From Desertivirga arenae (GTDB taxonomy: Bacteria; Bacteroidota; Bacteroidia; Sphingobacteriales; Sphingobacteriaceae): a DNA stretch of 64,000 nt. This document shows positions 47,603 to 62,800 of this stretch, one piece after another. The stretch is from positions 62,001 through 126,000 of the forward strand of contig NZ_JAFEWE010000007.1 of assembly GCF_017355785.1 (NCBI RefSeq), read 5' to 3'. Each line of letters opens with the position of its first letter. The stretch's first letter is position 1. Under the pieces are notes generated by a model, which was given only the letters and a program-made list of their open reading frames with translations, ran no database searches and was not told the DNA's origin. The position numbers and the translations under genes are program-made.

Positions 47603-50600
47603 TTACTGATTTGGAGCTTTTTTCTCCTGTTTAGCCGATTCAAGGTACTGGGAGGGCTTCATACCGAACTCTTCCTGAAAACATTTGGTTAGATAGCTTG
47701 ACGTACTAAAGCCAACCCTGTCTGCAACTTCTGCTACTGTGAGACCTTGATCTAATAACAAGGCAGCCCGTTTCAATCGAACCGATCTAATAAACGATGA
47801 AGGCGTTTTTCCTATAACATGTAAGAGCTTGCGGTATAATCCGGTGCGGTCCATCCCCATATCCTTACTTAACAGTTCTACTGAGTAGTCCGGATTGTCA
47901 AGATTCTCTTCGACATATTTCAACGCTTTTTGAATAAACTTTTCATCCTGGACAGACATAATATTTCCAGCCGGCAGGTTATCCTCGTTCCCGTCCTGGA
48001 TATTTTCCCTGCGTTCTTTTTGATGTTCTATTAACCTGCGCATGTTAAGCAACAAGACCTCCAGATTGAGGGCATTTTCATCCCTGGGGATCGGAGCCAG
48101 TACGTTTTCTGAAAGTTGCCCAACCAATTCTTTCAAGCCCTGGGCCTTATTCTGAATCTCTTTGAGCTGATGTTTCACCCGTCCTTCATCTGTATGTTTC
48201 ATTATAGCATCTAATGGAGAGATGATTTGGTCCAGTGGCTGATTTAGTTCTTCCTTAACATTACTCAGGAAGGCGGACTTCATCTGGTTCAACTTCTCTT
48301 TCTGTTCGCGAACCAGATTCCTGCGTTTTCTCTGCAAGTATAGCCACATCAAAAAAACAGTTAAGGTAAGGAGAAGAAGGATGTAGACGCAATAGGCGAT
48401 CCCTGACTTCCAGAAAGGTGCTTTTACAGTAATTTCAATTTCAGCATAATTTCCGCTCCAATCTCTGGCATTATTAGCAGAGCTTACTCTAAAGTGATAT
48501 TTGCCCGGCTCCAAATTGGTATAGCTTGCCCGGCCCTTTCCGTCGGGAGCCTGGATCTCCCGCTCGGTCTTATCGATGCCTGAAAGCTGATAACGGTAAT
48601 AGGTCTGGGTTGGATTTATAAAGTTAAGAGAGCTGAATTCAAGACTGAAGAAGTTTTGATCATAGTTTAAAATGATTTTTTTAGTAATAGGAAGAGGCTT
48701 GTTCAGTATGGTATTGCCTGCGTACTCCACACCACTTTCAATTTTTTTGTTGAACAGCAGAAAATTGACAAATAGAGGTACTGTTTTTTGTTGAGCCCGC
48801 ATCGTTTTTTGTGCTGGCAGTTCGTTGAATCCATCCGTCCCTCCCCAAAATATATTACCGTTTCTACCCAGATAAACAGAACGCTCAGTGAATTCATTAG
48901 CAATTAATCCGTCGTCACGTTTGAAATTATTGAAGGTATAGCGGTTGTTTTTTTGCCAGATAAGCCGCGTTATACCATTGGATGTAGAAACCCAAATTGC
49001 ACCATCTTTGTCTTCGGCAATAGATTGGATATAGTTATTTACTAAGCCCTGTTCTGTATAGAAAGATCGCTGTAGCCCCTTCTGCAAGTCCCACAGATGC
49101 AAGCCATCTTTACTCCCCAACCAGATCTGTTTCCGCGAATCTACAAGGATGGCATTGATGGAATGCTTGCCCGGATAGAAATTGCTTTTTCCATTCATCG
49201 GGTTATAAACAAAGAATCCATCCCTGCAAATACCAATCACTGAATTGTTATTTACTGTTATGAGCTGTAAAACGGTGTTAACCTTTTCAGATATGTTCAA
49301 CTTGACTGCCCTATAAGTTCCTGTCTGAGGATAAAAGGTGCCAAACGACTCCTCGCCCGTGCCTATGTATAAAGAGCCGTCAGGGGTTTCGCACAGAGAA
49401 TAAATAACCCTGGGAGTGTTTGGAAACTCTCTTATTTTTCCATTATCTTCCATACAGATTAAGCCTTCTCCTGCAGTCGCCAGCCAAATCCGGTTTTTAC
49501 TATCACGTAAGAGTGCTTTACAGTTCAGGCTTTGCTTAAATTTATTCAAAGGCTCGATCATCTGAGACTTTTTGTGGTAGCGAAACACGCCTTGCTGTGT
49601 TCCTACCAGCACAGCGCCATCCTGATCTTCTGTAAAGCAGGTAATATTAATCGTTGCGTTGGAGGCTGTCTTGAAGAGCGATTTTCCTATATTCCTGAAT
49701 TTAAACCGCTCTGGATGGTAGTAGAGTAATCCCCGGTTTAGCGTGCCGAGCCACAAACCGCCTTGGTTATCATGGTAAACAGTACTTACCTCGGTATTGA
49801 TGATCTGGCCGTCAACCAGTTTGAGGTCTTGAATAAACTCTTTCCTTGATAGATCGCTGCTCAGCTTCCACAATCCTTCTTTGCAAGTCACCCAGAGTTG
49901 ATCCTGGGGATCGATCGAAAGATAGTTCAACCAATAATCAGTTTGCAATACTGTTTCCCATTTCCTTTCCGGAATGTTGTAGGTTAGCATAATTCCACCA
50001 GCCGCGCCGTTCTTCAATTGAAAGAACCTGTTTTTCCCTTGAATGACAAATGAAGTAGATTCATAATTTCCTGCGTTAATTGCTGGTTGGATACTCTGGC
50101 GGTAAATCTCCCTCCCTGACGCAAGATCCAAACAGATCAGATATCCGGAACGGTAAAATAAGTATAGTTTCTTATTTAATACCGCCAGATCGTATACCTG
50201 ATCACTTCTTCCTGTAAGGCTGGACACCTGATGTCGAAAAAGTTTTAATTTTTTACCAGCCCGGAGATATATCAGTTCATCGTTTTTGGAAATTAGCCAG
50301 AGGTTTTTCTCGTTGTCTGCAAAAAAGTCGTCCAGGTCTTCATTAATTCCCATTACCTTCAAAAAAGCTTTTGGGTTCTCTTCAAATCGTTCCTTGTTTA
50401 GGTTGATCAGGTATAGCCGGTGCTGGTTCTTTAACCACAGATAGCCGTTACTACTTATATAGCTGTGGTGAAACCCCGAGTATCCTGAGAGCCACTGGCC
50501 GTTTTTATTAGTATAATGAAGGTATTTGAACGAGGTGCCATCGTAAATGTTAAGTAAACCTTCCGTTGTGATCATCATACGACCGTCGGGTAATTGTATA

Positions 50601-50725
50601 ATATTCCTTACCTGATTGTCTGACAATCCATTATTGCCATCAATAGGTGTAAAGGGGTAGTCTTGGATGGCAGATGCTGCTAATGTGCTGCAAACAAGTG
50701 TTATAAAGACAATAAGGATACGCAT
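47603..50725 (-). CDS. SusR-like regulator: propeller, Y_Y_Y, transmembrane helix, degenerate kinase helix, AraC HTH
   Basis: This 1040-residue inner-membrane regulator starts with a signal/anchor segment. About 640 residues of two-component-type propeller repeats follow (e.g. IWLGSKDGLHLWDL, AIWVSTSNGITRL). A Y_Y_Y domain lies at about 690-765, a transmembrane helix near 775-797, a degenerate kinase dimerisation helix around 800-870, and an AraC-type HTH at about 930-1035. In the dimerisation helix the phospho-accepting His is replaced by Glu825 (SNVKEELNQPLDQI). No ATPase or receiver domain is present. So it is not a kinase; it should pass ligand binding directly to its DNA-binding domain, as SusR does. 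It is likely to control GH31 through the 47567-47600 repeats (inference). Confidence 0.88.
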   Translation of the reverse strand: MRILIVFITLVCSTLAASAIQDYPFTPIDGNNGLSDNQVRNIIQLPDGRMMITTEGLLNIYDGTSFKYLHYTNKNGQWLSGYSGFHHSYISSNGYLWLKNQHRLYLINLNKERFEENPKAFLKVMGINEDLDDFFADNEKNLWLISKNDELIYLRAGKKLKLFRHQVSSLTGRSDQVYDLAVLNKKLYLFYRSGYLICLDLASGREIYRQSIQPAINAGNYESTSFVIQGKNRFFQLKNGAAGGIMLTYNIPERKWETVLQTDYWLNYLSIDPQDQLWVTCKEGLWKLSSDLSRKEFIQDLKLVDGQIINTEVSTVYHDNQGGLWLGTLNRGLLYYHPERFKFRNIGKSLFKTASNATINITCFTEDQDGAVLVGTQQGVFRYHKKSQMIEPLNKFKQSLNCKALLRDSKNRIWLATAGEGLICMEDNGKIREFPNTPRVIYSLCETPDGSLYIGTGEESFGTFYPQTGTYRAVKLNISEKVNTVLQLITVNNNSVIGICRDGFFVYNPMNGKSNFYPGKHSINAILVDSRKQIWLGSKDGLHLWDLQKGLQRSFYTEQGLVNNYIQSIAEDKDGAIWVSTSNGITRLIWQKNNRYTFNNFKRDDGLIANEFTERSVYLGRNGNIFWGGTDGFNELPAQKTMRAQQKTVPLFVNFLLFNKKIESGVEYAGNTILNKPLPITKKIILNYDQNFFSLEFSSLNFINPTQTYYRYQLSGIDKTEREIQAPDGKGRASYTNLEPGKYHFRVSSANNARDWSGNYAEIEITVKAPFWKSGIAYCVYILLLLTLTVFLMWLYLQRKRRNLVREQKEKLNQMKSAFLSNVKEELNQPLDQIISPLDAIMKHTDEGRVKHQLKEIQNKAQGLKELVGQLSENVLAPIPRDENALNLEVLLLNMRRLIEHQKERRENIQDGNEDNLPAGNIMSVQDEKFIQKALKYVEENLDNPDYSVELLSKDMGMDRTGLYRKLLHVIGKTPSSFIRSVRLKRAALLLDQGLTVAEVADRVGFSTSSYLTKCFQEEFGMKPSQYLESAKQEKKAPNQ

Positions 50726-50778: not shown

Positions 50779-51663
50779 TTAACTATATCGGGAAGAACAG
50801 TTTTGTTCTTTATATTGGCCTGGAGTAAGGCCTGTTATCTTTTTGAATATCTTTGAGAAGTAAGGTACATTTTCAAATCCAGTTTCTAAAGCCACCTCTT
50901 CAGAGGGCATTTTCGTTGTTGTTAATAAGTATTGTGCCCGTTCAATACGTTTTTCATTTATAAAAGCAATTGGGCGATCTCCTGTACTTCGCAGAAAAAG
51001 TCTCGAAAAATAATCTGGGTGCTGATTTGCTCTTTCTGCCAAATGAGCTACTGTAAGGTTTTTACCAAGGTTAAGTTGGATATAGCTGATCGAGTCGAGA
51101 ATTTTAGATGGAATTGTGGCCGATGTGGATTGTCTGAATGTTTTGGTTGTCAGAAACCTTGATATTAATTGAAGTAGTATTCCCTGTGTTTCCATGTAGG
51201 ATGCAAGGCTCTGTAAGTTGTTCAATTCCTGATATTGTTTGTAGTAAATACTTTTCTCGTATACCCGTGGATTATCTGAGCGGTTTATTCCCCTGCCTGG
51301 GTTAATGAATAGTAGTCGTTTGAAATTTTCTGAATCAAGAATGCTCGCTTCTACTTTCATTGTTGTCCTGTTGTTAGCAAACAATGAAATACCGTCTGCA
51401 GAATCTTCAAAGAATTGAATAAAGTACTGACTCAAGTATCTTTCACATTGCAAACTGCATAAGGTAAAGCTTGGAATAATATATAAGTAGCCAGGTTCGA
51501 GTTTGATAGTCTGTTTCTGGTCAGAAATATATCCTTCGCCATCGTCAATATAGTATAACCTGTAATACGGACTAACCACGTTGCTATAATTCCATTTTCG
51601 ATCAAGTTTCACGTGGTCTGCATGCAGGAGCGAAAATGAATGCTTTAGGATCTTCTTAGGCAT
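50779..51663 (-). CDS. AraC family transcriptional activator
   Basis: This is a 294-residue regulator. The N-terminal half is a cupin-like ligand-binding domain (YYRLYYIDDGEGYISDQKQTIKLEPGYLYIIPSFT). The C-terminal half has two helix-turn-helix motifs (LTVAHLAERANQHPDYFSRLFLRSTGDRP and MPSEEVALETGFENVPYFSKIFKKITGLTPGQY). Bacteroidota members with this architecture often regulate catabolic loci in response to sugars. It is divergent from the mutarotase-fucosidase pair; three copies of a GGTT(n)TGTGTAA motif lie in the shared intergenic space, one beside its own start codon, which suggests autoregulation. The SusR-like gene follows 53 bases downstream on the same strand. Confidence 0.9.
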   Translation of the reverse strand: MPKKILKHSFSLLHADHVKLDRKWNYSNVVSPYYRLYYIDDGEGYISDQKQTIKLEPGYLYIIPSFTLCSLQCERYLSQYFIQFFEDSADGISLFANNRTTMKVEASILDSENFKRLLFINPGRGINRSDNPRVYEKSIYYKQYQELNNLQSLASYMETQGILLQLISRFLTTKTFRQSTSATIPSKILDSISYIQLNLGKNLTVAHLAERANQHPDYFSRLFLRSTGDRPIAFINEKRIERAQYLLTTTKMPSEEVALETGFENVPYFSKIFKKITGLTPGQYKEQNCSSRYS

Positions 51664-51667
51664 AATC

Positions 51668-51679
51668 GGTTTTGTGTAA
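51668..51679. promoter_or_regulatory. AraC-type site, copy 1 (next to regulator start)
   Basis: GGTTTTGTGTAA lies four bases upstream of the AraC gene's start codon. It differs by one base from copy 2 at 51809-51820. Binding here could repress or limit its own transcription (inference). Confidence 0.5.
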
Positions 51680-51778
51680 TGATTGCACTACTCTTAATTC
51701 AGGAAATTTAGCCAAGTTTAAGGCTGTTGTTAGCTTGTTTTTCTGGTAATAATAAGATTTATTCGCGTTGATTTCAAT

Positions 51779-51798
51779 TTATTAACCTAAGTTAATAA
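51779..51798. promoter_or_regulatory. Inverted repeat in the divergent AraC/mutarotase region
   Basis: TTATTAAC-CTAA-GTTAATAA has perfect 8-bp arms with a 4-bp centre. It is AT-rich and may be a further operator or a regulator-binding palindrome. It lies just upstream of the direct repeats. Confidence 0.4.
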
Positions 51799-51808
51799 TG
51801 CTCAGGTC

Positions 51809-51841
51809 GGTTATGTGTAAGAAAAAGTCTGGTTTGTGTAA
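51809..51841 (+). promoter_or_regulatory. AraC-type sites, copies 2 and 3 (tandem)
   Basis: GGTTATGTGTAA (51809-51820) and GGTTTGTGTAA (51831-51841) share the core TGTGTAA, whose copies lie 21 bp apart, two helical turns. The second ends 21 bp before the -7 box at 51863. This is the standard layout of an activator-dependent AraC promoter. Confidence 0.6.
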
Positions 51842-51862
51842 ATGTGGAGATCACATTCTCAA

Positions 51863-51870
51863 TAGATTTG
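51863..51870 (+). promoter_or_regulatory. -7 promoter element for mutarotase-fucosidase operon
   Basis: TAGATTTG matches TAnnTTTG exactly. No good -33 box is at the normal distance, which fits dependence on the activator sites at 51809-51841. Confidence 0.6.
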
Positions 51871-51942
51871 TACTAAGGACAACAATAAGGATGCCTCCTT
51901 ATCCTTCAGACTAGCTGATAAAATAAATCTAAAAATTCTCTC

Positions 51943-52320
51943 ATGAAAAGGTACTGTCTTGCACTGGATCTGGTAGATGATCCTGAATTAATCCAAGAAT
52001 ATGTAAGCTGGCACAGGGATGTCTGGCCTGAGATACAACTTGGGATACATGAAAGTGGGATCAGAGAGATGGAAATCTATCTGGTGGGTAACCGCCTTTT
52101 TATGATTATTGAAGCTGAGGATTATTTCACATTTGAGAAGAAGACTGTAATAGATGCCACTAACCACAAGGTGCAGGAATGGGAACAGTTGATGTGGAAA
52201 TTTCAGAAACCGCTTCCCTGGGCAAAGAATGGAGAAAAATGGATACTGATGGATCGAATTTTTACGCTGGGAACAATCAAAACTCAAGAAAAACCTGGAG
52301 ACAGAAACAACAGGAAGTGA
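51943..52320 (+). CDS. L-rhamnose/L-fucose mutarotase family protein
   Basis: This 125-residue cytoplasmic protein is of the RhaM family (ferredoxin-like fold). It interconverts alpha and beta anomers of L-rhamnose or related 6-deoxysugars. The motifs LDLVDDPELIQEYVSWHRDVWPEI, IYLVGNRLFMIIEAEDYF and EWEQLMWKFQKPLPWA are family landmarks. The usual length is about 104 residues; the last 20 or so residues, charged and low in hydrophobicity, are an extension. Its stop TGA overlaps the ATG of the GH29 gene by one base (TGATG), so the two are translationally coupled. Because the partner is an alpha-L-fucosidase, L-fucose is the more likely sugar (inference). Confidence 0.9.
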   Translation: MKRYCLALDLVDDPELIQEYVSWHRDVWPEIQLGIHESGIREMEIYLVGNRLFMIIEAEDYFTFEKKTVIDATNHKVQEWEQLMWKFQKPLPWAKNGEKWILMDRIFTLGTIKTQEKPGDRNNRK

Positions 52321-53972
52321 TGAATAGAAGAGATTTGTTAAAAAAACTTGCCCTGGCCATTCCAGCATTAGCTGTAGCTAAAGATCTTGAAGCTGCAGAC
52401 TTCCTTATTAACGGATATAAAGAGAAAATGGCCCGGGGGCCATTCCAGCCAAACTGGGAGTCCTTATCCGCATTTCAAACCCCTGATTGGTTTCGAAATG
52501 CAAAGTTTGGGATATGGGCACATTGGGGCCCCCAATGTCAGCCTGAATATGGCGACTGGTATGCCAGGGAAATGTATATGGAGGGAAGCCGCCAATATAA
52601 ATACCACCAACAAAAATACGGTCATCCATCAAAATATGGTTTTAAAGATGTGATCAATGATTGGAAGGCAGAGCAATGGAATCCCGAAGAGTTAATGGCC
52701 TTATATAAAAAGGCGGGGGCAAAATACTTCATGGCCCTTGCTAACCATCATGACAATTTTGACCTGTTTAAAAGCAAATATCAGAAAGGCTGGAATTCTA
52801 CCAAAATAGGTCCTAAGAAGGACTTGATTGCCGGGTGGGAGAGAGCATCCAGAAACAATGGATTGTATTTTGGTGTTAGCGTTCACGCTGCTCACGCCTG
52901 GAGTTGGATGGAAACATCCCAAAGATCAGATAAAAGCGGGCCTTATGCAGGTATTCCATACGATGGCAAGCTTACCAAAGTTGATGGCAAAGGGCAATGG
53001 TGGCAGGGGCTGGATCCTCAGGAGCTCTATGAGCAATCACATCCTCTAAGTAAAAATAGTTCGGATAACGGCATGATCCACCAGCAATGGAACTGGGGAA
53101 ATGGAGTGACAGTGCCTTCAAAAGAGTATTGTGAGAAGTTTTATAACAGAACTATTGATCTGATCAATTCTTATAATCCCGATCTGGTTTATTTTGATGA
53201 TACAGCACTTCCCTTATGGCCGGTAAGTGATGCAGGACTTCGTATCGCAGCTCATTTATACAACCGGAGTATTAAAAAGCATGGGAAGGTGGAGACTGTT
53301 GTCTTCGGAAAGATATTGGATGAATTGCAGCGTAAGTGCATGGTTTGGGATATTGAAAGGGGGCAAAGCAACACTATAGAGCCCTTGCCATGGCAAACCG
53401 ATACTTGTATTGGAAGCTGGCATTATGATAGAGAGGTGTATCGTAATAAAAGGTATAAAAGCGCTAAGACCGTAATCCAAACCTTAGCTGATGTGGTTAG
53501 TAAAAATGGTAACCTCTTGTTAAGCGTGCCAGTGAGGGGTAATGGAACAATCGACGAACAGGAACGTGAGATCGTTGAAGAGATAGGTGAATGGATGGCG
53601 GTTAATGGAGAGGGGATATATGACACCCGTCCCTGGAAGGTATTTGGAGAAGGGCCTGCAATGCATTCTTTGGCCCCTCTTTCTGCACAGGGATTTAATG
53701 AGGGAAAGGGAAAGCCTTTCACTTCTGCTGATATTCGTTTTACATCAAAAGATAATGTGATCTATGCAATTGTTCTCGGATACCCTGAAAATGGGGAAGT
53801 TTTAATTACAGGTCTAAACAGTAACACAAGGGCAGGAATGAATCAATTATCCAGTGTAGAAATGCTTGGAAATTCGCAGAAGCTCTTATTCAAAGAGGAC
53901 GATATGGGCTTAAGGATTCAACTTCCAGAAAAGCCAAAGTTTAATTACGCCTTTACATTGAAAATTGTGTGA
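52320..53972 (+). CDS. GH29 alpha-L-fucosidase, putative Tat-exported
   Basis: The ATG at 52320 is chosen because it gives a coherent signal peptide, MNRRDLLKKLALAIPALAVA. Its twin arginines (residues 3-4) suggest Tat export; a longer frame from 52179 would overlap the mutarotase gene and has no such start. The product is 550 residues. The barrel has DWFRNAKFGIWAHWGPQCQPEYGDWYAREMY, then KKAGAKYFMALANHHDNFDLF, and NPDLVYFDD with catalytic nucleophile Asp293. WQTDTCIGSWHYD and VVSKNGNLLLSVPVRGNG close the barrel before a C-terminal beta-domain. It removes terminal alpha-L-fucose. It is activated together with the mutarotase, probably through the AraC sites upstream. Confidence 0.92.
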   Translation: MNRRDLLKKLALAIPALAVAKDLEAADFLINGYKEKMARGPFQPNWESLSAFQTPDWFRNAKFGIWAHWGPQCQPEYGDWYAREMYMEGSRQYKYHQQKYGHPSKYGFKDVINDWKAEQWNPEELMALYKKAGAKYFMALANHHDNFDLFKSKYQKGWNSTKIGPKKDLIAGWERASRNNGLYFGVSVHAAHAWSWMETSQRSDKSGPYAGIPYDGKLTKVDGKGQWWQGLDPQELYEQSHPLSKNSSDNGMIHQQWNWGNGVTVPSKEYCEKFYNRTIDLINSYNPDLVYFDDTALPLWPVSDAGLRIAAHLYNRSIKKHGKVETVVFGKILDELQRKCMVWDIERGQSNTIEPLPWQTDTCIGSWHYDREVYRNKRYKSAKTVIQTLADVVSKNGNLLLSVPVRGNGTIDEQEREIVEEIGEWMAVNGEGIYDTRPWKVFGEGPAMHSLAPLSAQGFNEGKGKPFTSADIRFTSKDNVIYAIVLGYPENGEVLITGLNSNTRAGMNQLSSVEMLGNSQKLLFKEDDMGLRIQLPEKPKFNYAFTLKIV

Positions 53973-59837: not shown

Positions 59838-62800
59838 TTAATTGATGTTTAAACTTAGCCCTAAGGTGTAAACCCTTGTTGTAGGGTACTTATCCCTGTC
59901 GTCATTACCAGGGGATAAGCCTAAGCGGTTCACTTCCGGATCCATTCCTTTGTACCCAGTTATGGTAAAGGCATTCAGAGCAGATGCATAAACCCTTGCA
60001 GATTTAAAATGACGGGAAGGAAGGTTTAAGCGGTAACCGAGGGTAATGTTATCTACCTTCCAAAAATCTCCGTTTTCAATATAGTAGCTATTATACTCTG
60101 GCGAAATACTATTGTTTAAAACTGCTTTCCCAAATACTTTGTCGTAGGCAGATTGAAGCTGGTTATATAAAGAGAACCCAGGAATTTCAGAATACATGCG
60201 CTGGAAGTTTAGGATCTGGTAATCGAACGCCCCTCGCATAGTAATGCTTAGATCAAATTTGCCATAGTTGAAATTGTTGTTCCAGCCTGCATAGTATTTA
60301 GGAAGCCCGTTACCAAGGATCTTTTTATCTGCTTCGGCTTTAGTGGCAGAAGGATTTCCATCTTTATCCTCGTAGATCCATTTTCCATCGTCTGTAATAT
60401 CTAGTACCTTGTAACCATAGAAGTTACCGATGGGTTTACCAACTTCAACCCTATGTGTATAGGTTTGAACAGGAGAGCCTGTAAAGCCAACATTTATAAA
60501 GTTATTGGTAGCTTGATATAAATCGTTAGAGAGGGAAACAAGCTTATTGCTGTTTGTAGAGAAGTTCACGCTCGATTGCCAGGAGAACTTTTTGGTTCTT
60601 ACAGGGCTAATATTTAACAACGCCTCGAAGCCTTTATTAGCCATTACACCAACATTGGCTGTAGTAGTGCCATAAAGGTTTGGAGGAGAGGGTACAGCAT
60701 AATCATAAAGAAGCCCTTCAGTCCTTCTGTTGTAATAGTCTAGGTTTCCGCTAATGATTCCTTTAAATAGGGTAAAGTCCAGGCCTAAATTCTTTTCTTT
60801 TTTAACCTCCCATTTCAAATAGGGGTTCGGGTTACTGATCGGCGATAATCCGGAGATCCACTGCCCGTCAATAAGGTAGGTTATAGATCTTTGGGTAATA
60901 GGGTCACGGTACCCAAGCCTGCTTACTCCGAGGAACAAGGCATCAGGAGCAGTGCCTGTTACCCCATAACCCGCTCTTAATTTCAAGTCTGTAAGGAATG
61001 TAAGCTTGCTCATGAACGGCTCTTTACTTAGTCTCCAGCCTGCAGATACAGAAGGGAAGGTCCCCCAGGGATCTTTAGTGCCAACAAAACGGGAGGAAGC
61101 CTCATGTCTTAAATTTGCAGTCAGAAGATATTTCTCCCTATAGTTGTAGGTAAGCCTGCCAAAGAAGCCAATCAGGTTTGAAGCTAGCTTATTGCTCGAC
61201 ATGCCAGCCAGTCCGTTGCCTAATCCTGTACCGACTCCAATGTTATCTATATAAGAAAAGTTTCCTGCCGGAAAACCCAAATTCTGAATGTTAGTGCTTT
61301 CACTGGTATTGTGCTGATAGCTATATCCTCCAAGCACAGAAAAGTTATGACTGTTGATGGCTTTGTTATACTGTGCACTTAATTCAATCAGATTATCCAG
61401 GCTCTGTCCATCACTTTTAGCTGCAAAGCCTTGTCGACCATCCCGAACGGTTGATATATGGTTCTTCGTTTCTGCATAACCATATACACTGTTAAACTTG
61501 CTGCGAGACCCAAGGGCTTTTAACTGGAGACCTGTTACAGGCAACCAGGTCAGGCTTCCACTGATCCGGGTGTTCTGCGACTGGTTTTCCCCATAGGCCT
61601 CATTAATAAGTGCCAATGGGTTTTCGTAACCGGCGATAGCTGCCTGCTCGTGCCAGGTTCCATCTGCATTTGTGATTGGGGCTGTCGGGTTCCTTCCAAG
61701 AACTTGTCTCAGGATGGTTGTATTAAACCCGCCATTGCCAAGACTATTGTATTTAATATCGGTGTTCAATACATTCAAATTAACCTTCAATTTGTTATTG
61801 AACATGTTGTGGTTCACATCTACCCTTCCGTTGATTGTCCGATTGTCAGACTTAAGAAAAACACCCTCAAAATAGCGGTAACCCAATGTTGCTACGTAGT
61901 TAGTTTTGTTACTCCCACCTTTAAAAGATAAGTTTTGGCTATTGCTTATAGGTGTTTCCCGGCTGACCGCTTTTACCCAATCCGTGTTATCACCTAAATC
62001 CTGAAGAGGAAGATGTTCTTTATATTGCTCATTGCTTAGCATCTTGGGAAGGTTGGCAAATTGTTGGGTGCTTGCAAACCCATTATAGTCTATTGTAGGT
62101 TCTATATTGCCATTAGGTCTTTTAGTTGTTATTAGTATAACTCCATTAGTACCACGGGTTCCATAGATAGCAGCGGCAGAACCGTCTTTCAGAACATCCA
62201 TACTTTCAATATCCTCTGGCGCAACAGTGTTTAAGTCGCCGGGTATACCATCTACCAGGATAAGAGGTTGCACACTTGAGCCCAGGGTTGCAGTTCCGCG
62301 TAGAAGGATCTGGGTAGAAGAGGTAGGATCTCCACTGGGTGTTCCGATAGCAAGACCTGCCACCTTACCTTGAAGCAGCTGACCCGCATCTTTCACTGCA
62401 CCTTTGACAAAATTATCAGACTTTACGCTGGTTACTGCACTAGTTACATCTGCTTTTCGCTGAGTTCCGTATCCAATTACGACAACCTCATTCAAGCTCG
62501 TCTGCTGTTCCTGGAGCGTAATATTTAGCGTTGCCGACTCGCCAATTGTTCTCTCCTGAGTTACAAAGCCGATAAAACTGAATACGAGGATCGCGTTCTT
62601 ATCAGCAACTGAAATTTTATATTTCCCGGCACCATCAGTCACCGACCCATTTGCCTGACCTTTTATTTTAACAATAACACCAGGGATCGGCCGGCCTGCT
62701 GCATCAGTAACAACCCCGCTTACCGTTAATTGCTGGGCTGCTTTATCTGATACCAGGCTAGAGGTTTTAATTGCTCCCTCTTTTACAGAGATCGTGTTAT

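Follow-up and report, generated by a model that had tools for sequence, protein, structure and literature searches.

A conserved tandem of 21-bp sites in fixed register with a -7 box points to AraC-family activation of mutarotase-fucosidase genes in Desertivirga arenae

We analysed a 64,000-nucleotide stretch of the Desertivirga arenae genome (contig NZ_JAFEWE010000007.1, forward-strand positions 62,001 to 126,000; referred to as the window), in which a 279-bp intergenic region separates a gene for an AraC-family regulator (araC) from divergent genes for a mutarotase and a GH29 alpha-L-fucosidase. The region contains three copies of a 21-bp site, two of them in tandem upstream of a -7 box. The genes and elements, in window coordinates and with scores from a weight matrix built without the window (held-out scores), are as follows.

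50779..51663, reverse strand: AraC-family regulator of 294 amino acids (PF12833, E=1e-20; PF00165), with HTH_18 at residues 208-286 and the start codon at 51663-51661
51661..51681, forward strand: copy 1, an isolated single site, CATAATCGGTTTTGTGTAATG, candidate autoregulatory site overlapping the AraC start codon; held-out score 17.4
51802..51822, forward strand: copy 2, the distal tandem site, TCAGGTCGGTTATGTGTAAGA, 40 bp before the -7 box, in the same register as in orthologous loci; held-out score 13.6
51823..51843, forward strand: copy 3, the proximal tandem site, AAAAGTCTGGTTTGTGTAAAT, 19 bp before the -7 box, reaching about -32, in an orthologue-like register; held-out score 14.4
51863..51870, forward strand: -7 box, TAGATTTG, of the predicted mutarotase-fucosidase promoter, the sole exact TAnnTTTG on the forward strand of the intergenic region
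51943..52320, forward strand: RhaM-family mutarotase (PF05336, E=9.2e-30), the first gene after the promoter
52320..53972, forward strand: GH29 alpha-L-fucosidase (PF01120, E=6e-88; PF16757), the second gene

The original prediction for this region described three copies of a motif with the core TGTGTAA. Reading of the sequence bears this out, with GGTTTTGTGTAA at 51668-51679, GGTTATGTGTAA at 51809-51820, and GGTTTGTGTAA at 51831-51841. The core of copy 2 starts at 51814 and that of copy 3 at 51835, indeed 21 bp apart, and the exact -7 box expected 21 bp after copy 3 is present. The GGTT that was thought to be common to all copies is out of register in copy 3; the frame that the copies do share is RTCKGnTnTGTGTAA, which extends them to the 21-bp sites listed above and makes copies 2 and 3 contiguous. 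The bare TGTGTAA was rejected as the unit and replaced by the 21-bp site, since it occurs six times in the window against 8.15 expected, and the core alone therefore proves nothing. Two inverted repeats also lie at the edges of the tandem: a perfect one, TTATTAAC-CTAA-GTTAATAA, directly upstream of it at 51779-51798, and AATGTG-GAGAT-CACATT, read by eye at 51841-51857, from the end of the proximal site toward the -7 box.

A contig scan with the AraC protein returned 75 loci, of which 74 were kept, with 54-72% identity over the best segment (the matches at L076 and L077 span residues 1-95 only). L078, with 29% identity over 69 residues on a Bacilli contig, was excluded before all counts. The k-mers enriched directly upstream of the orthologous araC genes include GTCGGATT, TTGTATAA, and AAAGTC, and the upstream regions of the 74 orthologues, with the window excluded, yielded a 21-bp weight matrix with the model AAAARTCGGWTTTGTATAAAA. 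The matrix was seeded with k-mers from these regions, and counts made there are partly circular; the held-out parts are the window, the positions outside the orthologous regions, and a cross-lineage test, the seed of which came from all loci. On both strands of the 64 kb, the three highest scores are those of the sites starting at 51661 (17.4), 51823 (14.4), and 51802 (13.6), and the next is 8.2. Sites scoring at least 13.6 are expected 0.0009 times on one strand of the intergenic region at its own base composition.

The arrangement of the sites is conserved together with the sites themselves. We defined a composite as two sites spaced 21 bp apart, with a score of at least 11 at either place, a proximal site that scores above 8 or keeps at least four of the five letters of AAGTC, and a box with at least five of its six fixed bases located 40 or 41 bp from the distal site. 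Of the 74 loci, 59 carry such a composite in the divergent region, with a gap of 41 in 36 and of 40, as in the window, in 23, and the six box bases are complete in 54. It also occurs outside the divergent region at nine places, and L026, L028, L030, and L031 carry it elsewhere only. GH29 lies upstream of and co-directional with araC in five loci, and in three of them (L026, L030, and L031) the composite precedes the GH29 gene. No composite was found on either strand of the 906,738 bases of the reversed-sequence control. Here and for the pairs described below, targets were not curated calls but the first frame downstream of the box that opens with ATG and reaches at least 90 or 80 codons. On this basis, the first gene after the composite in the orthologous loci and the window is a GH29 relative in 44 of 69 cases and a mutarotase in 5.

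For the cross-lineage test, the loci were divided by hand into Flavobacteriia (28) and others (46). Training on the latter group gives a matrix that finds a site of at least 11 together with an exact TAnnTTTG in register in all 28 Flavobacteriia loci, while the expected site-box offsets are fitted by chance at 0.94% of positions. Both lineage matrices rank the three copies in the window as the first three in the region. The two halves of the tandem are not equally strong: among the 59 composites, both sites score at least 11 in 28, which are the Flavobacteriia loci in our reading of the site list, only the distal site does so in 30, and only the proximal site in one. In composites with a single strong site, the proximal site mostly retains AAAGTC and has lost the rest. 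The tandem in the window consists of two middling sites.

A further conserved element, AAARTCGGAAATATATAAAT, is located at L036:5735-5755 and in 22 further loci of the orthologous set, nearly all of them Flavobacteriia (for example, L043, L047, and L056). In most loci, the GH29 start codon follows it at a distance of some 3-30 nt. It is related to the 21-bp site yet distinct from it, and it may be a third binding site in the leader.

The pair was also searched for in 251 genomes of the family. With one mismatch allowed, 27 genomes contain 35 occurrences of the pair pattern, and the control contains none. Of the 251 genomes, 50 encode the AraC orthologue (E up to 1e-60), namely 26 of the 27 genomes with a pair and 24 of the 224 without (Fisher p 2e-20, a value that is overstated because the genomes are related). 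Of the 34 pairs outside the window, some of which share their organism with an orthologous locus and have identical sites (e.g., L127/L004 and L116/L023), 16 are within 5 kb of an orthologue, 17 are at least 5 kb away or on another contig, and one is in a genome that lacks the orthologue (G140). The 29 of these pairs that had a locus were read, and 23 have an exact TAnnTTTG at 40 or 41. The gene after the pair is GH29 in 17 cases, 14 of them close relatives of the window fucosidase and 3 other GH29 genes; the remaining genes are one mutarotase, two aldo/keto reductases, one FucP, one Zn-dehydrogenase, two GH97, one GH42, and one GH43, and no informative gene was called after the pairs at L114, L118, and L121. 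The FucP-like protein exceeds the TIGR00885 cut-off (379.9 versus 280.4 bits). The targets thus cover fucose release, uptake, and oxidation, with GH29 and the mutarotase in the window and GH29, FucP, and dehydrogenases in relatives, and they make fucose or a fucosylated sugar the likely inducer. At the level of sequence comparison, the sites, the fixed register with the -7 box, the link to the regulator, and the target genes are shown.

The regulator has the C-terminal double helix-turn-helix of the AraC family (PF12833 and PF00165), which matches the AraC DNA-binding domain 2k9s. Its predicted structure (predicted local distance difference test 80.8, predicted template modelling score 0.61) is beta-rich in the N-terminal half and helical in the C-terminal half. 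In the N-terminal part, where AraC-type sugar regulators carry a cupin-like domain for sugar binding, there is no Pfam domain match; the beta-rich half matches AraC (2arc/2aac) and BgaR with E values of a few 1e-6 and a large root-mean-square deviation (rmsd). Foldseek places AraC-family proteins, ToxT and Rns among them, at the top for the whole model, again with a large overall rmsd, and its 50 listed matches include E. coli AraC bound to L-arabinose or D-fucose.

In an AraC-type class II operator, two direct repeats lie 21 bp apart, and the nearer one adjoins the -33/-35 region. The window shows this layout, with direct repeats 21 bp apart at 51802-51843 that end 19 bp before the -7 box. 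The tandem is therefore very probably an AraC-family activator operator of araI-like layout, perhaps responsive to L-fucose, and the activator layout proposed in the original prediction is strongly supported by the register, the cross-lineage hold-out, the co-occurrence across genomes, and the pairs away from araC. We consider it highly likely that the region is a sugar-responsive AraC-family promoter; that the regulator binds here, activates rather than represses, responds to such a sugar, and regulates itself is inferred from the comparisons. The adjacent AraC protein in its sugar-bound form would occupy the head-to-tail sites 51802-51822 and 51823-51843 and recruit the holoenzyme of the Bacteroidota primary sigma factor to the -7 box; the mutarotase and GH29 fucosidase genes would thereby be switched on. 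The inducer would most likely be L-fucose or a fucose-containing sugar, and copy 1, which lies over the start codon, may let the regulator hold down its own synthesis.

The position of the tandem relative to the transcription start can be estimated. TAGATTTG matches TAnnTTTG, the pattern of Bacteroidota primary sigma promoters, and 4-5 nt separate the -7 element from the start in probable promoters (PMC6847099, cited from excerpts, as are the other PMC papers below). The predicted start is therefore at about 51875-51876, which places the tandem sites at about -73 to -53 and about -52 to -32. The original prediction had remarked that the box lacks a usual -33 element; in F. johnsoniae that motif is far less apparent (PMC6847099), and its absence here is thus weak as evidence. 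A leader hairpin at 51885-51902 was considered and rejected, as the leader as a whole folds with a z-score of -0.85, which is not significant.

Several results weigh against this interpretation. In eleven of the 74 loci, the stretch examined contains no composite at all; these include L052 and L067, despite a co-directional GH29 gene directly upstream of araC. The Flavobacteriia-trained matrix finds sites in 25 of the 46 other loci, 16 in register, and it gives the distal copy in the window a score of only 5.8, which is still third in the region. Across the family, 24 of the 50 genomes that encode the orthologue lack a pair at up to one mismatch, the pattern match in G140 (L114), the genome without the orthologue, lacks a -7 box, and 6 of the 29 pairs read have no exact box at 40 or 41. 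The tandem sites in the window score low for the family, in which many relatives reach at least 20. By the per-position value, single sites of at least 13.6 are expected about 17 times in the 6.19-Mb genome, and an isolated site at C2:170887-170901 (L107) scores 16.3, above both tandem copies, with no partner at 21 bp; the score of one site is therefore not diagnostic, and rarity resides in the pair in register rather than in a single site. Finally, boxes in F. johnsoniae almost never have a G at the third or fourth base, with a refined consensus of TAHHTTTG (PMC6847099). The window box departs from this rule, which was derived in another organism, by a G at its third base, and it is perhaps a weak box that needs help.

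The organism's own genome adds to these points. A search there for further tandem sites, as the original prediction had suggested, found no other pair under three mismatches; the pair pattern has one other match at three mismatches (control 1). Of the composite patterns, one matches the window alone, at zero mismatches (control 2), and a second has two other matches at three (control 0). The single-site pattern gives 240 matches at up to two mismatches versus 235 in the control. No score above 8.0 was found at the organism's own aldo/keto reductase, FucP-like, and other GH29 loci (17 besides the window, with about 1.5 kb of flanks), where two of the eight FucP-like matches had no locus to scan. 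The regulon in this organism may consist of the mutarotase-fucosidase operon plus, perhaps, araC. In the same genome, C1:191699-193072 carries an aldo/keto reductase with a short FucP-like fragment alongside and a best site of 7.8, and it is possibly a decayed fucose cluster. The orthologue is missing from G001 and G002, two other genomes of the genus, at E up to 1e-40.

Copy 1 had been described as abutting the start of the regulator gene and as a basis for autoregulation. In its full 21-bp form it overlaps the start codon instead. Sites of its quality are expected 1.2e-4 times in 300 bp, which is beyond chance for the place, and it is the best single match in the window. The autoregulation proposal is only partly supported: among the 12 other loci in which the tandem is more than 100 bp from araC, an AraC-proximal site of at least 11 is present only in L018 and L071 (L013 has 10.7), and the look-alikes in the nearest relatives, L004 and L005, score about 1 or less. 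Copy 1 is a plausible autoregulatory site of poor conservation. In 43 of the 59 loci, the tandem itself starts no more than 50 bp from the araC start codon, which makes some feedback likely in general. A loop between copy 1 and the tandem is not favoured, as their 141-bp spacing corresponds to 13.4 turns at 10.5 bp.

Among the alternatives, the one that survives best concerns only the inducer, which could be L-rhamnose or another deoxy sugar with the rest of the mechanism unchanged. The first gene of the operon belongs to the RhaM family, and AraC-family RhaR regulators with 21-bp direct repeats have been described (PMC3870299). However, the window mutarotase falls far below the cut-off of the L-rhamnose mutarotase equivalog TIGR02625 (25.2 versus 99.6 bits), and the pairs precede GH29 in 17 of 29 cases and a FucP above its curated cut-off in another, which leaves this inducer unlikely.

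AraC might also act as a repressor, with the proximal site touching the -33 region and keeping RNA polymerase out as long as the sugar is absent. E. coli AraC is known to play both parts, and the end of the proximal site at about -32, counted from the start estimated with the spacing in PMC6847099, would fit repression. Against this, activation typically involves sites located wholly upstream of about -31, in a fixed register and in one orientation. The Bacteroidota AraC-family sugar regulators RhaR of B. thetaiotaomicron (PMC3870299) and CgrA of Zobellia (PMC5698469) act positively, and we regard repression as quite improbable here.

It is less probable still that the tandem serves mainly the regulator's own gene by autorepression, with the fucosidase operon under other control. 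The closeness of the distal site to the araC start in most loci, together with the overlap of copy 1 with the start codon, would fit such a role, but the -7 box in register is directed at the mutarotase and fucosidase genes, L026, L030, and L031 have the pair in front of a fucosidase gene that is co-directional with araC, 17 of the 33 pairs outside the window in genomes with an orthologue are far from araC, and 17 of the 29 pairs read precede GH29.

That another regulator uses the sites, such as the neighbour at 47603-50725 that resembles a hybrid two-component system (HTCS) protein, is hardly credible, as the AraC orthologue is present in 26 of 27 genomes with a pair and relatives of this neighbour (E up to 1e-8) occur in only 4 of the 74 loci with 21-28% identity. 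The HTCS-like protein, encoded on the reverse strand, has Reg_prop, Y_Y_Y, and HTH_18 domains, a sub-threshold HisKA, and no match to an ATPase or receiver domain, which suggests a sensor with a reduced kinase core.

Our preferred reading is AraC-dependent activation of the mutarotase-fucosidase genes. To our knowledge, few environmental Bacteroidota regulators have a known DNA site, and the site, the register with the -7 box, and the target list make one such regulator directly testable. They also extend what was noticed in a single genome to a predicted regulon for the use of fucose-containing glycans across several classes. We tentatively suggest, with rather less confidence than for the promoter itself, that many environmental Bacteroidota (Sphingobacteriia, Chitinophagia, and Flavobacteriia) rely on this AraC-type protein as their main activator for L-fucose, where gut Bacteroides have the GntR-type FucR. 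It would work through a rigid tandem-to-box register and a lineage-specific use of the tandem, with both sites strong in Flavobacteriia and a strong distal and weak proximal site in most others, the window being an exception. If this is true, these promoters provide a natural test of the strong/weak araI1-I2 switch on a phylum-specific sigma factor.

The open-licence literature, covered through titles and abstract openings and apart from supplements and RegPrecise, yielded no description of this regulator or motif among the matches listed. The closest known layout is that of araI1-I2 at araBAD, where E. coli AraC likewise uses two half-sites in direct repeat, spaced about 21 bp, of which the nearer extends to the -35/-33 region, and where a strong I1 and a weak I2 resemble the 30 of 59 composites in which only the distal site reaches 11. 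The E. coli system differs in its site sequence and sigma factor, no loop is shown for the window system, and the likeness of the N-terminal domain is at the fold level only (2arc, E about 5e-6, large rmsd).

FucR of Bacteroides thetaiotaomicron (BT1272; PMC3878776) controls fucose use in a Bacteroidota species, but it is a GntR-family protein with a single target operon, whereas the window regulator has AraC-type Pfam domains only. For FucR of hypersaline-mat bacteria (PMC5507952), sites are predicted at L-fucose/L-fuconate loci in a set that includes Algoriphagus, a Bacteroidota genus with FucP in its locus. Like the regulator described here, the RhaR proteins of Bacteroides, Bacillales, and Enterococcus (PMC3870299) are sugar regulators of the AraC family whose motifs are direct repeats with a 21-bp period, and that of B. 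thetaiotaomicron exerts positive control, as we propose for the window. Unlike it, they target the rhamnose pathway, and their motifs, described as group-specific, are set beside the window site by description only. An AraC-type on-switch with 21-bp repeats is thus an already known kind of system, to which this regulator and its site are an addition.
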